The notes beneath the pieces are model-generated. The model ran no database searches. It saw only the letters and a program-made list of their open reading frames with translations, and was not told the DNA's origin. Made by a program: the position numbers and the translations under genes. From Gammaproteobacteria bacterium (GTDB taxonomy: Bacteria > Pseudomonadota > Gammaproteobacteria > Pseudomonadales > Azotimanducaceae), in assembly GCA_002719135.1 (NCBI GenBank), contig PBGU01000052.1, positions 7,294-44,988 of the forward strand: a stretch of 37,695 nucleotides of DNA. The letters are read 5' to 3'. Of this stretch, positions 5,860-36,006 are shown one piece after another. Every line of letters begins with the position of its first letter. Position 1 is the first letter of the stretch.

Positions 5860-6738
5860 ATGAAGAATCGAATTGTCATCACGGGCGCAAATGGACACAT
5901 TGGCCAACGGTTGATCAACAAAATGGCGATCGATTACGAGGTCCGGGCCCTCGTTAGGACAGATAAAGCGGCGCAAATGCTCGGCAATTCGGCAGCCGAC
6001 GAGGTGCGCATTGTTGATTACACGTCTGAATTGGCAATGACGAGAGCGCTTGAAGGGTGCATTGGTGTTGTGCATTTGATCGGGATCATCCGGGAGAGCC
6101 ACAACAGCACCTACATTGATGCTCACGAAAACGCGACGAGGGCGTTGCGTCATGCGTCGGAAATTAATGGCATTCGCAAGGTCGTTTACCTCAGCGTATT
6201 GGGTGCCGCGGTTGATTCCGGGAACGCATGTTTCTCGAGTAAAGCCAAGGCGGAACGTATTCTGACGGAGAGTGTTGTCTCGTCGAGTATTTTACGCGTT
6301 CCCATGGTGCTTGGGGCAAATGACCACGCCTCACGCGCTTTAGCAAAGCGCGCCTCGAGCACCATTGCGTTCGCGTTCCGAGCATCTAGCTTAGAACAAC
6401 CCATCGACGTTGATGACGTCATTGCGGCTGTGATTGCTTGCATGGAATCGAGTATAGCGGGGGTCCTGTGTCTCGCTGGGCCGGCCTCGCTCAGTCGGCG
6501 AATGCTCTATGAGCGCGCCGGGTTTCATGGACTTTTGATTTCGTTACCGATTTGGTTAGGCATGATCGTGGCTGGTTTATTGGAGCGGGTGAGCGATAAC
6601 CCGCCGATGACGGGCGCGATGTTGGGTGTCTTAGATCACGATGACAACATTGGCGTCGATGCGTGTGCCCAGAAGCTAGGTATAACGCTAACGAGCCTCG
6701 ACGAAACGTTAAAAAAAATTGCACCGTCGCTCGATTAA
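5860..6738 (+). CDS. NAD(P)-binding epimerase/NmrA-like (atypical extended SDR)
   Basis: This 292-residue Rossmann protein starts IVITGANGHIGQRL (GxxGxxG dinucleotide site, residues 7-15) and continues with VVHLIGIIRE and KVVYLSVLGA. That is the layout of atypical extended SDRs related to complex I subunit NDUFA9 and NmrA-like proteins. The usual YxxxK is not clear: the position after the SVLGA strand reads SSKAKAERIL, with Lys but no preceding Tyr. A non-catalytic or quinone/NAD-sensing role is therefore possible. The C-terminal part (about 220-290) has a hydrophobic helix (LLISLPIWLGMIVAGLL). Its TAA overlaps the convergent yejE stop by 2 bp. Confidence 0.8.
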   Translation: MKNRIVITGANGHIGQRLINKMAIDYEVRALVRTDKAAQMLGNSAADEVRIVDYTSELAMTRALEGCIGVVHLIGIIRESHNSTYIDAHENATRALRHASEINGIRKVVYLSVLGAAVDSGNACFSSKAKAERILTESVVSSSILRVPMVLGANDHASRALAKRASSTIAFAFRASSLEQPIDVDDVIAAVIACMESSIAGVLCLAGPASLSRRMLYERAGFHGLLISLPIWLGMIVAGLLERVSDNPPMTGAMLGVLDHDDNIGVDACAQKLGITLTSLDETLKKIAPSLD

Positions 6739-29448: not shown

Positions 29449-30282
29449 ATGTCTGACGAAAATCCGATTCTGACCGAGCGCCGCGGACAACAAGGGGGGA
29501 TTCTTTGGCTTACCTTGAATCGACCCGAGAAACTCAATGCGTTGACGTTTCCGTTGTTACGCGAGTTGCGTGAAATTGCGTTTGAGGCACGCTTTGATCG
29601 CACCATACGGTGCGTGGTTATCACAGGTGCGGGCCGTGGTTTTTGTGCTGGCATGGATTTTGGCGGGGCGGCTAACCCCGACCCCGACCCGGTCCCCGAG
29701 GGTTTAGAGGCTGGCCAGGTTGATGCCGAAGGTTACCGGCTGAATTTTCGCCACGAGACTGAAACATTTATTGCGCTACGTCGGATAGAGGTCCCCATGA
29801 TCGCAATGGTTAACGGGCCGTGCGTCGGCGGCGGTTTCGATCTTGCCAGTCATTGCGACATGGCGGTGGTCTCGACGACGGCTCGATTCCAAGTTGCCTA
29901 TGTCAAGCGCGGTGTCTTTGCAGATCTAGGTGGATTTTGGTCACTACCGCGAGTCATCGGATGGCGAAAGGCAATGGAGATGATGATGACGGGACGCTTC
30001 ATGAGTGCGGAAGAGGCGCATGATGCTGGGTTTTCCAACTACCTTGTCGAACCCGACGAGCTGGAAGAAAAAACCATGGAACTCGCATTGGAAATTGAAG
30101 CGGGGCCGCCGATTGCGCAGAAGGTTGGCAAGTTGCTCGCGATGCGAACCGCCCACATGGACTTCGATTCGGCCATGCAGTGGTCGGAAACTGCGATTCC
30201 ATTGGTTGGCCTCTCCGCAGACGCCCGTGAGGGCGCGGCTGCGTTTCGAGAAAAAAGAGAGTCCGATTTTAAAGGCGTCTAA
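29449..30282 (+). CDS. Dienoyl-CoA isomerase-like crotonase (crotonase C)
   Basis: This 277-residue crotonase shows VVITGAGRGFCAGMDF, NGPCVGGGFDLASHCD and GVFADLGGFWSLPRVIG. The Asp in FADLGG matches the catalytic Asp204 of dienoyl-CoA isomerase (ADVG in ECH1). The first hydratase Glu position is Asp in GGFDLA, and the partner Glu is missing by eye. The function is therefore probably isomerase-like rather than hydratase. AAGGGAG precedes the ATG. It lies 36 bp upstream of the glutathione peroxidase gene on the same strand, making a likely two-gene transcription unit. Confidence 0.88.
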   Translation: MSDENPILTERRGQQGGILWLTLNRPEKLNALTFPLLRELREIAFEARFDRTIRCVVITGAGRGFCAGMDFGGAANPDPDPVPEGLEAGQVDAEGYRLNFRHETETFIALRRIEVPMIAMVNGPCVGGGFDLASHCDMAVVSTTARFQVAYVKRGVFADLGGFWSLPRVIGWRKAMEMMMTGRFMSAEEAHDAGFSNYLVEPDELEEKTMELALEIEAGPPIAQKVGKLLAMRTAHMDFDSAMQWSETAIPLVGLSADAREGAAAFREKRESDFKGV

Positions 30283-30318
30283 TCGCGCTATGATTTAGGG
30301 CATAACAAAGGAGAAACC

Positions 30319-30798
30319 ATGGGATTCCATGACATAACAATGCAGTCCATTACCGGGGAACCGAAGAGCTTTGAACAACTCAAGGGCCAGGTCTGTCTGG
30401 CCGTCAACCTAGCTAGCCAGTGAGGACTCACGCCACAGTACGCAGGTCTGCGTACATTACATGAGGACAACGCAGAGAAAGGATTTACCGTTCTCGGATT
30501 TCCTTGCAATCAGTTCGGAGGGCAGGAACCAGGAACGAACGAGGAGATCCTAGAGTTTGCCCGGTCTAAATTCGACGTGACCTTCCCGATGTTTTCCAAG
30601 ATCGAAGTGAACGGAGATGGGGCGTGCGAGCTCTATCAGCTCTTAACGTCGGCCATTTCGAACCCAGAGGGTAAGCCCGACATCGCGTGGAATTTCACCA
30701 AATTCCTTATTGATGGAGATGGCAACGTGGTGGAGCGGTTCGAACCGGGGACGGCGCCTGAAGAGATCGCGGTAAAACTTGAGGGCTATTTGAGTTAA
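30319..30798 (+). CDS. gpx: Selenocysteine-containing glutathione peroxidase (in-frame TGA = Sec35)
   Basis: Reading through TGA at 30421-30423 gives one uninterrupted 159-residue glutathione peroxidase; the track shows only the last 73 residues (30577-30798). The ATG at 30319 has AAAGGAGA about 6 nt upstream. The peroxidatic site reads NLASQ-U-GLTPQY, where Cys-type family members read NVASxCGLTPQY, so the TGA is exactly at the Cys/Sec position. The rest of the tetrad is present: Gln69 in FPCNQFGGQEPG, and Trp124 and Asn125 in WNFTKFLID. The enzyme reduces hydroperoxides with a thiol reductant. Its length equals the bacterial BtuE/GPx type (about 160-185). It forms a probable unit with crotonase C and is followed by a terminator-like hairpin. 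A Cys-to-stop nonsense mutation is the alternative, but the SECIS at the correct distance argues against it. Confidence 0.93.
30427..30465 (+). promoter_or_regulatory. Bacterial SECIS element directing Sec insertion at 30421-30423
   Basis: GTACGCA (30438-30444) and TGCGTAC (30449-30455) form a perfect 7-bp stem closing a GGTC tetraloop, so the apex reads GC-AGGTCT-GC. I recall the same apical sequence from the E. coli fdhF SECIS. The stem begins 14 nt after the TGA, within the short distance required for SelB to deliver Sec-tRNA. A lower stem CTCA/TGAG (30427-30430 with 30462-30465) extends it across an internal loop. The bulged U of E. coli is not present, as in many other bacteria. Confidence 0.88.
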
Positions 30799-30829: not shown

Positions 30830-30851
30830 CAATATTCACGAGAGGGTGTCC

Positions 30852-32057
30852 ATGGCAGCGTTGGATGGTTTGCGGGTACTGGATATGACCCAGTACGAAG
30901 CGGGGACATCGTGTACCCAAGCATTGGCATGGTTGGGCGCAGACGTCGTGAAGGTCGAGCGTCCCGATGGTGGAGATCCGGGACGAGGTGCGGGTGGCGA
31001 CGCTGAGTACTTTGTTGTCTGGAACTCGAATAAACGGAGTGTCGCGATTGATCTGCGGAGCGCGGACGGTCGTGCGTTGTTTATGCGGATGGTGCCTAAA
31101 TACGATGTCTTCGTAGAAAACTATGGCCCCGGCGTTATCGAGCGATTGGACATTGGTTACGAGGCAATGAAGGCTGTGAAGCCCGACATTATCTATGCCC
31201 GTATCAAGGGGTTCGGGGTGGACGGCCCTTGGTCTGACTACAAGTGCTACGACATGGTGGCGCAAGCGGCCGCAGGGGCTTTTTCGATCACGGGCGAGAT
31301 TGACGGACCGCCTATGCGACCGGGACCGACTATGGGAGATGCGGGAACTGGAATACAAATGGCGCTCGCGATCGCGGCCGCGTACGCGCAGAAACTTCGC
31401 ACGAGCAAAGGACAGCTGATCGAATTGTCAATGCAAGAGGCCATGACCTATTACCTACGCACCGCCACCTCGTCAGGAAATTATGGAGAACGGGCGGCGA
31501 ATCGATCTGGAAACGGACAACTCCCCACGATGTCTCTATACCCTTGTGCTGGCGGCGGGTCGAATGATTATGTATACGTGATGGCGGTTACCCCAAAGAT
31601 GTGGGAAGCCCTCTGCCGTGTGATCGATCGAGAGGATCTTGTTCAACATCCGCAATTTAGTCGGCAGGCAGATCGTTACCAGAACCGTGACGAACTGCGA
31701 GGGATCATTGGCACGTGGGCCCTGACGCGTGATAAGTATCAAGCCATGCGCGAGTTGGCCGAGGGAGGTGTTCCCGCGAGCGCCGTCCTCGACACGAGCG
31801 ACCTCTACAACAATCCTCACCTGGTCGAGAGAGGCTTTGTTCACGAGGTTGAACATCTGCGCCACGGTGCGGTAAAGCTTCTCGGCTGGCCGGTGCGCAT
31901 GTCGGAAAGCTCGGTTGAAATCGAAGCTGCGCCAATACTTGGGCAGCATTCCAACGAAGTATTAAATGATGATCTGGGGTTAACCCAAACAGAACTAGAC
32001 GACCTCACGAAACAGGGCGTCATCCAACAGATGGCATCGAACTCGACGGATCGGTGA
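30852..32057 (+). CDS. CaiB/BaiF family CoA-transferase
   Basis: This family III CoA-transferase has 401 residues from ATG 30852 (AGAGGG 5 nt upstream; the track's GTG 30846 lies inside that site). It moves CoA between carboxylic acids through a covalent aspartyl-CoA intermediate. The catalytic Asp is Asp163 in PTMGDAGTG. The N-terminal GLRVLDMTQYEAG, VVKVERPDGGDPGR and NSNKRSVAIDLRS are typical. Formyl-CoA:oxalate and carnitine/succinyl-CoA transferases belong here, and the pair of substrates cannot be told from sequence. Its 3' end is only 6 bp from the convergent ADP-forming acyl-CoA synthetase. Confidence 0.93.
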   Translation: MAALDGLRVLDMTQYEAGTSCTQALAWLGADVVKVERPDGGDPGRGAGGDAEYFVVWNSNKRSVAIDLRSADGRALFMRMVPKYDVFVENYGPGVIERLDIGYEAMKAVKPDIIYARIKGFGVDGPWSDYKCYDMVAQAAAGAFSITGEIDGPPMRPGPTMGDAGTGIQMALAIAAAYAQKLRTSKGQLIELSMQEAMTYYLRTATSSGNYGERAANRSGNGQLPTMSLYPCAGGGSNDYVYVMAVTPKMWEALCRVIDREDLVQHPQFSRQADRYQNRDELRGIIGTWALTRDKYQAMRELAEGGVPASAVLDTSDLYNNPHLVERGFVHEVEHLRHGAVKLLGWPVRMSESSVEIEAAPILGQHSNEVLNDDLGLTQTELDDLTKQGVIQQMASNSTDR

Positions 32058-34341: not shown

Positions 34342-36006
34342 ATGGGGACCGTAAGTGGTGCAACCCTCATGGCGCGAAGCCTTAAGCAGCAGGGCGTCGA
34401 CTATATTTTTGGCATCGTCGGCTTTCCAGTGCAAGGATTCGCGGCGGTAGCTCAAAAGGAAGGTATCCGATACGTCGGTATGCGCAACGAACAAGCTGCG
34501 AGCTACGCCGCACATGCTGCTGGGTATCTAACGGGGCGCCCGCAAGGATGCTTGACCGTTTCGGGCCCCGGCGTGATCCACGCTTTCGCGGGACTAGCGA
34601 ATGCAAAACAGAATTGCTGGCCAATGATATTGATCGGCGGGGCGTCTCCCGTTTTCCAAAATGGTATGGGCGGCTTTCAAGAGGAACGCCAAGTCGAACT
34701 CGCGGCTCCGTATTGCAAGTATGCGCACGCGATCGAGCACGTCCGTCGGATCCCATATTACGTTAACCAGGCCGTTCGGCATTCGTTGTTCGGCCGTCCA
34801 GGCCCGGTTTACCTGGACTTCCCCGATGACATCATTAATGGCCAATGCGAGGAAGAAGACGTAACTCAAGCCGCGACAGTCCCCGAACCGCCGCGAACGC
34901 TTGCCGATCCAGACGCGGTCGAGGCCGCACTCAATGCGCTTGAATCTGCTGAGCGACCCTTGGTTGTTGTGGGCAAAGGGATGGCATGGTCGCGAGCAGA
35001 AGACGAGATCCGGGAGTTTATTGAGCGCACCCAACTACCGTTTCTCAATTCCCCGATGGGTAAAGGCACGATGCCTGACAACGATTCACTTTCGGTTGGC
35101 GCGGCACGCAGTACCGCATTACGCGACGCAGACCTGGTGTTCCTGATGGGCGCGCGACTGAATTGGATCATGCACTATGGCTTGCCGCCACGCTTCAACG
35201 AAAATGTTCGTATTGTCCAACTCGACATTTCGCCTGAAGAAATTGGTACCAATGTACCGACAGAAGTTGCCTTGGTAGGAGATGGAAAAGCCGTCGTCGG
35301 CCAGCTCAATCGAGCCCTCGATAATCGGCAATGGTTCTATCCAGCCGAGACCACCTGGCGCACGACGTTGAGAGAAAAGGCTGAATCCAACCACGCGGCT
35401 GTGCAACCCATGATCGACGATGATTCAGCACCGTCAAATTATTACCGCGCGTATAAAGACATCGTTGATTGGCTGCCAGATGACGCCATTATTATCGGCG
35501 AGGGTGCCAACACGATGGACATAGGACGCACTCAAATGCCGAACGTGCATTCGCGGCATCGTTTGGATGCGGGCACCTATGGAACGATGGGCGTGGGGCT
35601 GGGTTTTGCGGTCGCTGCCGCGGTAACCAATCCAGACAAACCGATCGTATCGGTACAAGGTGATTCGGCGTTTGGATTTACCGGCATGGAGATCGAAACG
35701 ATGATCCGCTACAACCTCCCGGTAAAAATGATCGTTTTGAATAACGGGGGTATCGGTGGACATAGCGGTTCAACAGAACCACCAGCACCTGGAGAAATTC
35801 AACCGCCTGGAAATCTCACGTATGGCGCTCGGTATGACCTTATGGTCGAGGGCCTCGGCGGCAAAGGCTGGTATATAGAAGATCCTAAGGATCTACGCGC
35901 GGCACTTGATGAGGCGATGGCGCACGATGGCCCCACGTTGATCAATGTACCGCTCAATATTCGTTCCGGACGTAAGCCACAAGAGCACGCCTGGTTGACG
36001 CAATAG
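34342..36006 (+). CDS. ThDP-dependent 2-hydroxyacyl-CoA lyase / oxalyl-CoA decarboxylase-like enzyme
   Basis: This 554-residue ThDP enzyme has the three family domains. The PYR domain carries the cofactor-activating Glu50 in GMRNEQAA. The ThDP-binding motif is GDSAFGF (440-446) through LNN (about 466-468). The segments YIFGIVG, SGPGVIHAFAGLANA, LDAGTYGTMGVGLGFA and GFTGMEIETMIRYNLP closely track peroxisomal 2-hydroxyacyl-CoA lyase (HACL1), which cleaves 2-hydroxyacyl-CoA to formyl-CoA plus an aldehyde; oxalyl-CoA decarboxylase is the close alternative. AGGGGAAG precedes the ATG. It is divergent from the ADP-forming synthetase, with an 8-bp-stem terminator directly after it. A CaiB/BaiF transferase next door could handle the formyl or oxalyl CoA ester. 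Confidence 0.9.
   Translation: MGTVSGATLMARSLKQQGVDYIFGIVGFPVQGFAAVAQKEGIRYVGMRNEQAASYAAHAAGYLTGRPQGCLTVSGPGVIHAFAGLANAKQNCWPMILIGGASPVFQNGMGGFQEERQVELAAPYCKYAHAIEHVRRIPYYVNQAVRHSLFGRPGPVYLDFPDDIINGQCEEEDVTQAATVPEPPRTLADPDAVEAALNALESAERPLVVVGKGMAWSRAEDEIREFIERTQLPFLNSPMGKGTMPDNDSLSVGAARSTALRDADLVFLMGARLNWIMHYGLPPRFNENVRIVQLDISPEEIGTNVPTEVALVGDGKAVVGQLNRALDNRQWFYPAETTWRTTLREKAESNHAAVQPMIDDDSAPSNYYRAYKDIVDWLPDDAIIIGEGANTMDIGRTQMPNVHSRHRLDAGTYGTMGVGLGFAVAAAVTNPDKPIVSVQGDSAFGFTGMEIETMIRYNLPVKMIVLNNGGIGGHSGSTEPPAPGEIQPPGNLTYGARYDLMVEGLGGKGWYIEDPKDLRAALDEAMAHDGPTLINVPLNIRSGRKPQEHAWLTQ

Follow-up and report, generated by a model that had tools for sequence, protein, structure and literature searches.

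The window (the whole 37,695-nt stretch of DNA that was analyzed) carries a gene, gpx, whose product is highly probably a functional selenocysteine (Sec)-containing glutathione peroxidase (GPx), a GPX4-like monomeric enzyme in which an in-frame UGA is read as Sec and which is reduced by glutathione (GSH), with the sel genes of the organism falling in assembly gaps. The gene occupies positions 30319 to 30798 on the forward strand and runs from an ATG start to a TAA stop, coding for 159 residues with one in-frame TGA at codon 35 (30421 to 30423, forward strand) when translated with read-through. A Shine-Dalgarno-like AAGGAG (30308 to 30313, forward strand) can be read from the sequence 5 nt before the ATG. 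These coordinates, strand, and length agree with an earlier sequence-only reading, which had proposed a GPx with a single TGA and neither a frameshift nor another stop; as it also noted, ORF calling splits the gene; what remains callable is a 34-aa ORF (30319 to 30423) and a 73-aa GTG-started ORF (30577 to 30798).

The read-through protein matches PF00255 (GSHPx) with 131.5 bits against a cut-off of 27 (E=1e-38), spanning profile positions 1 to 107 of 108, and a profile search shows this to be the sole GPx locus above the PF00255 cut-off in the genome. The TGA is kept in two independently assembled same-genus genomes (loci L037 and L184) and in 45 further TGA-type genes, and the differences between the window and L037 or L184 are mainly synonymous on either side of the TGA (with L037, dN 0.000 and dS 0.156 before it, dN 0.016 and dS 0.166 after it). 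The profile score, the conservation of the TGA, and the mainly synonymous changes together rule out a chance read-through frame.

The gene sits ∼36 bp from an upstream enoyl-CoA hydratase/isomerase family gene (29449 to 30282, forward strand; PF00378) and ∼47 bp from a downstream class III CoA-transferase gene resembling formyl-CoA transferases (30846 to 32057, forward strand; PF02515, with NF003809/TIGR03253 below cut-off). This order is the same in both congeners (L184 and L185) and is absent from the other relative loci checked, most of which are short. We treat these neighbors as context only and claim no functional link to the GPx. We note that an oxalyl-CoA decarboxylase-like gene lies at 34342 to 36006 (550 bits against a cut-off of 557), and together with the formyl-CoA transferase-like gene it possibly belongs to an oxalate or 2-hydroxyacyl-CoA pathway. 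An Rfam Fibro-purF match within the 3′-terminal part of the enoyl-CoA hydratase gene (30205 to 30276; 29.2 bits against a gathering threshold of 60) is probably due to chance.

Alignment with Cys- and Sec-type GPx proteins places the TGA at the peroxidatic position, as had been proposed, and codon 35 across the fetched loci is TGA (51), TGC (63), or TGT (18) and nothing else, with TGA in both same-genus relatives. The catalytic tetrad of Sec35, Gln69 (30523 to 30525), Trp124, and Asn125 (30688 to 30693), all on the forward strand, is likewise intact and is invariant across 129 homologues. The resolving cysteine that thioredoxin-dependent 2-Cys GPx proteins carry in the second helix, as in yeast Gpx3 (Hyr1), is replaced by Ala81 (30559 to 30561, forward strand), the residue that aligns with the yeast Cys. 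In the 129-homologue alignment this site is Ala or Val in 48/48 Sec-GPx and Cys in 76 of the 81 Cys-GPx. An AlphaFold model from a 44-row alignment has a mean pLDDT of 93.3, and its closest solved folds are monomeric GPx proteins, including GPX4 (TM mostly 0.89 to 0.95 by query length); the solved structures closest in sequence are those of yeast Hyr1/Gpx3 and other GPx.

Just downstream of the UGA there is a bacterial SECIS upper stem-loop, GTACGCA-GGTC-TGCGTAC (30438 to 30455, forward strand), identified by the contrast between Sec and Cys genes, its minimum free energy (MFE), and pair counts. The RNA hairpin (GUACGCA-GGUC-UGCGUAC) starts 14 nt after the UGA and has 7 bp and a 4-nt loop beginning with GG, with 21 nt between UGA and loop and an MFE of −13.6 kcal/mol (z −2.5). 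Neither this hairpin nor the missing resolving cysteine had been seen in the sequence-only reading, although it had suggested a SECIS check at this locus, and both emerged in the follow-up. The Rfam search gave no match for the SECIS, and to our knowledge Rfam has no family that covers bacterial SECIS elements in general. In the published model, a bacterial SECIS has a 3- to 9-nt loop with a G within its first two positions, a stem of 4 to 16 bp, a distance of 16 to 37 nt from the UGA, and an MFE of at most −7.5 kcal/mol (PMC13188914), and the gpx hairpin falls within all of these constraints.

When presence is scored as at least 6 of the 7 pairs forming in either of two registers, 48/48 TGA genes have the hairpin, against 0/81 Cys genes (Fisher p 1e-36, on rows that are not phylogenetically independent); some genes have an alternative hairpin, AGTACGC-CGGGTT-GCGTACT. 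Pair counting gives 96.4% of cells paired, which is higher than in all 500 shuffles. One pair has changed from G-C to A-U, a compensatory change present in four genes that lie on two separate branches; another pair tolerates G-U. The covariation is modest, with 3/7 pairs invariant and one showing two-sided changes, and a control slid by 2 is similar on covariation alone; the case for the SECIS therefore rests mainly on the Sec/Cys contrast. All 48 Sec genes encode Gln40 with CAG and Tyr41 with TAC, whereas the codon entropies at these residues are 1.05 and 1.12 bits in the Cys genes, and residue 45 is Arg or Cys in Sec genes and Glu or Gln in almost all Cys genes. This pattern of codon use and residue choice shows selection on the RNA. 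A synonymous-encoding test is weak alone, as 2.1% of encodings pair by chance (0.4% if only Watson-Crick pairs count). A search of viral contigs for the SECIS pattern found none.

The sequence-only reading had also held that UGA is decoded as Sec in this organism, a claim that gains support from the SECIS conservation and from the selC-selB-selA loci of same-genus genomes. The genome itself (G000) is a draft of 2.08 Mb in 61 contigs, 82% complete, and searches of it for selA, selB, selC, and a native selD gave nothing above cut-off. A SelB candidate with 187 bits was taken to be EF-Tu, its 399-aa frame being of EF-Tu length, and the tRNA-Sec matches below cut-off are ordinary Leu, Ser, Trp, and Gly tRNAs. 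The whole sel set is present in same-genus genomes at 93% completeness, and the two genomes of the same genus within the family sample (G032 and G056) each have a Sec-GPx and carry selC (whose anticodon is UCA), selB, and selA adjacent at a contig start.

The ends of the organism's own contigs indicate why its assembly lacks these genes. A 12-kb query from G032 matches the genome only from query base 6240, which corresponds to base 1 of contig C33, at 95% identity, so that C33 starts within 2.8 kb of the selA position. By comparison with G032, the missing 6.2 kb holds selC, selB, selA, a HIBADH-like gene, and citrate synthase; because citrate synthase is lost in the same gap, a break in the assembly is far likelier than loss of the sel genes. 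Contigs C60 (at base 1) and C46 (at its last base, 22665) similarly flank a gap of ∼5.3 kb that holds the sister's SelD-fusion gene. Since the contigs end exactly at both loci and the congeners carry the genes just beyond, the absence of selA, selB, selC, and selD from this draft is far more likely to reflect assembly gaps than loss, and the species presumably retains them; that both loci were lost and the contigs merely happen to end there is an unlikely alternative. A complete genome without selB and selC had been named beforehand as an outcome that would count against Sec decoding, and this does not apply to an assembly that is incomplete and breaks at the sel loci. The example illustrates how the absence of selB and selC from a draft genome can mislead.

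Several observations concern the surroundings of these loci. In each of the two same-genus assemblies a contig begins directly past selC (L182:1-200 and L183:1-100), and the organism's own assembly breaks nearby; such breaks near tRNA-Sec perhaps mark a repeat or an integration hot spot. The SelD proteins of G032 (L225:2079-4259) and other same-genus genomes have 726 to 731 residues, about twice the usual length, and the SelD domain appears to be fused to another domain. A selD with an in-frame TGA on the organism's own contig C2 (L216, C2:22337-23257), which by eye lies beside a gene for a luciferase-like flavin oxidoreductase, was considered as a second selenoprotein and proof of Sec decoding and was rejected as a probable binning contaminant. 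The tetranucleotide profile of C2 is foreign (correlation of 0.48 to 0.59, versus 0.87 to 0.96 for the other contigs), its region has no match in six same-genus genomes, and the contig probably comes from another Sec-decoding bacterium.

That the gene is instead a degenerating relic, dead and broken at its old Sec codon in a lineage that recently lost selABC and selD, would accord with an assembly devoid of sel genes. It is nonetheless very improbable, given contigs that end exactly at both sel loci, congeners that have the whole set at 93% completeness, mostly synonymous changes relative to L037 and L184 on both sides of the TGA, a perfect SECIS, and no other damage. The window does come from a draft metagenome-type assembly, in which a TGC or TGT of an ordinary Cys-GPx might have been misread as TGA, but 47 other loci, drawn from many assemblies, have the same TGA, which refutes this in practice; moreover, the SECIS occurs only with TGA, the codons for residues 40 to 46 differ systematically from those of the Cys type, and the resolving Cys is absent, so that such an error deserves almost no credence. 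Nothing beyond the in-frame TGA speaks for a genome-wide reassignment of UGA to Trp or Cys without Sec machinery. This is contradicted by the TGA stop codons that end 6 of the window's 30 main ORFs, by a homologous residue that is always Cys and never Trp, and by the SelB and tRNA-Sec of the relatives, and we regard its probability as negligible.

With UGA read as Sec, SelB-GTP-Sec-tRNA(Sec) would dock on the SECIS just 3′ of UGA 35, on a hairpin whose bases also specify residues QYAGLRT. The Sec selenol is predicted to reduce H2O2 or organic and lipid hydroperoxides, aided by Gln69, Trp124, and Asn125. With Ala in place of the resolving Cys, the oxidized selenium would most likely be reduced by two glutathione molecules, and not via thioredoxin and an internal disulfide. 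For the wider group as well, the most likely mechanism is GPX4-like, with one selenol and dependence on glutathione, because 48/48 Sec-GPx lack the resolving Cys of 76/81 Cys-GPx. It is conceivable, if rather unlikely, that the Sec protein uses a reductant other than glutathione, with another thiol, or Cys103 or Cys26, resolving the selenenic acid and thioredoxin regenerating the enzyme. Cys103 is present in 37/48 and Cys26 in 32/48 Sec-GPx and both are rare in Cys-GPx, but neither is universal in the Sec clade.

A TGA-type GPx above cut-off is found in 41 of the 61 genomes of the window's family, and among these 41, selB is above cut-off in 36, selC in 36, both in 34, and neither in 3. TGA is absent from the GPx matches of all 44 other GPx-bearing genomes in a spread of 143 Gammaproteobacteria. 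The statement that bacterial Sec-GPx is rare thus holds for bacteria at large but not for this family, in which the TGA form is usual. Assemblies of Acidimicrobiales, Myxococcota, and 'Deltaproteobacteria' also contain Sec-type relatives with the same SECIS. A tree of 129 proteins groups all 48 Sec genes together with five Cys genes (SH-aLRT 100), and the Sec/Cys character needs five changes; because the tree was built quickly, has many poorly supported inner branches, and draws on a sample chosen by similarity, event numbers and transfer directions are provisional.

The five nested Cys genes (L015, L023, L021, L041, and L044) are exactly the Cys-GPx without the resolving Cys, and hence are apparent Sec-to-Cys reversions; L044 retains a decayed SECIS. 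Four of the five are from family genomes, at least three of which (G007, G040, and G019) still hold selB and selC. We lean somewhat toward the view that a single ancient Sec-GPx lineage with a near-frozen dual-coding SECIS is the family's standard peroxidase, has moved between phyla together with its SECIS (to or from Acidimicrobiales, Myxococcota, and 'Deltaproteobacteria'), and has gone back to Cys on four or more occasions with the resolving Cys still missing. If so, the reverted one-Cys enzymes are natural test cases for why Sec is kept.

The family contains a natural series of Sec genes that have the SECIS, reversions to Cys whose SECIS has decayed, and distant Cys genes that have the resolving Cys; the series is suited to testing what Sec adds to a peroxidase. 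Automated annotation likely drops or truncates gpx family-wide, hiding both the main GPx and a dependence on selenium. More interesting than a single new gene are the occurrence across the family, the common SECIS, and the nested reversions, and we found no description of these in the open-access subset of the literature.

The window gpx belongs to a selenoprotein family known since 2006, when the Treponema denticola Gpx was listed once as a bacterial Sec-GPx (PMC1794560); 40 marine GOS Sec-GPx sequences followed in 2008 (PMC2398784), and a 2026 catalogue includes a GPX-like class with a UxxT motif (entry WP_010957027.1; PMC13188914). Like gpx, these have PF00255/COG0386 membership, Sec at the peroxidatic position, and a bacterial SECIS within the ORF (PMC1794560, PMC13188914, PMC2398784), and the catalogued UxxT corresponds to U-G-L-T in the window gpx; the Treponema protein is likened by description, not by sequence. 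The surveys cover single species or reads, whereas the window gpx is of the form that a whole family of Gammaproteobacteria usually has, with a SECIS in common and Sec-to-Cys reversions that can be traced. The Cys-type thioredoxin-dependent GPx proteins (yeast Hyr1/Gpx3, poplar GPX5, and bacterial BtuE-like enzymes) have the fold and three of the four tetrad residues in common with gpx, but use Cys and a resolving Cys where gpx has Sec and Ala81. Mammalian GPX4 shares the monomeric GPx fold (TM about 0.8 to 0.93), Sec catalysis, and the tetrad, and we take it to lack a resolving Cys at the yeast Gpx3 position, as gpx does. The two proteins are ∼45% identical, and they differ in that the GPX4 SECIS lies in the 3′-UTR, whereas that of gpx is bacterial and lies within the ORF.
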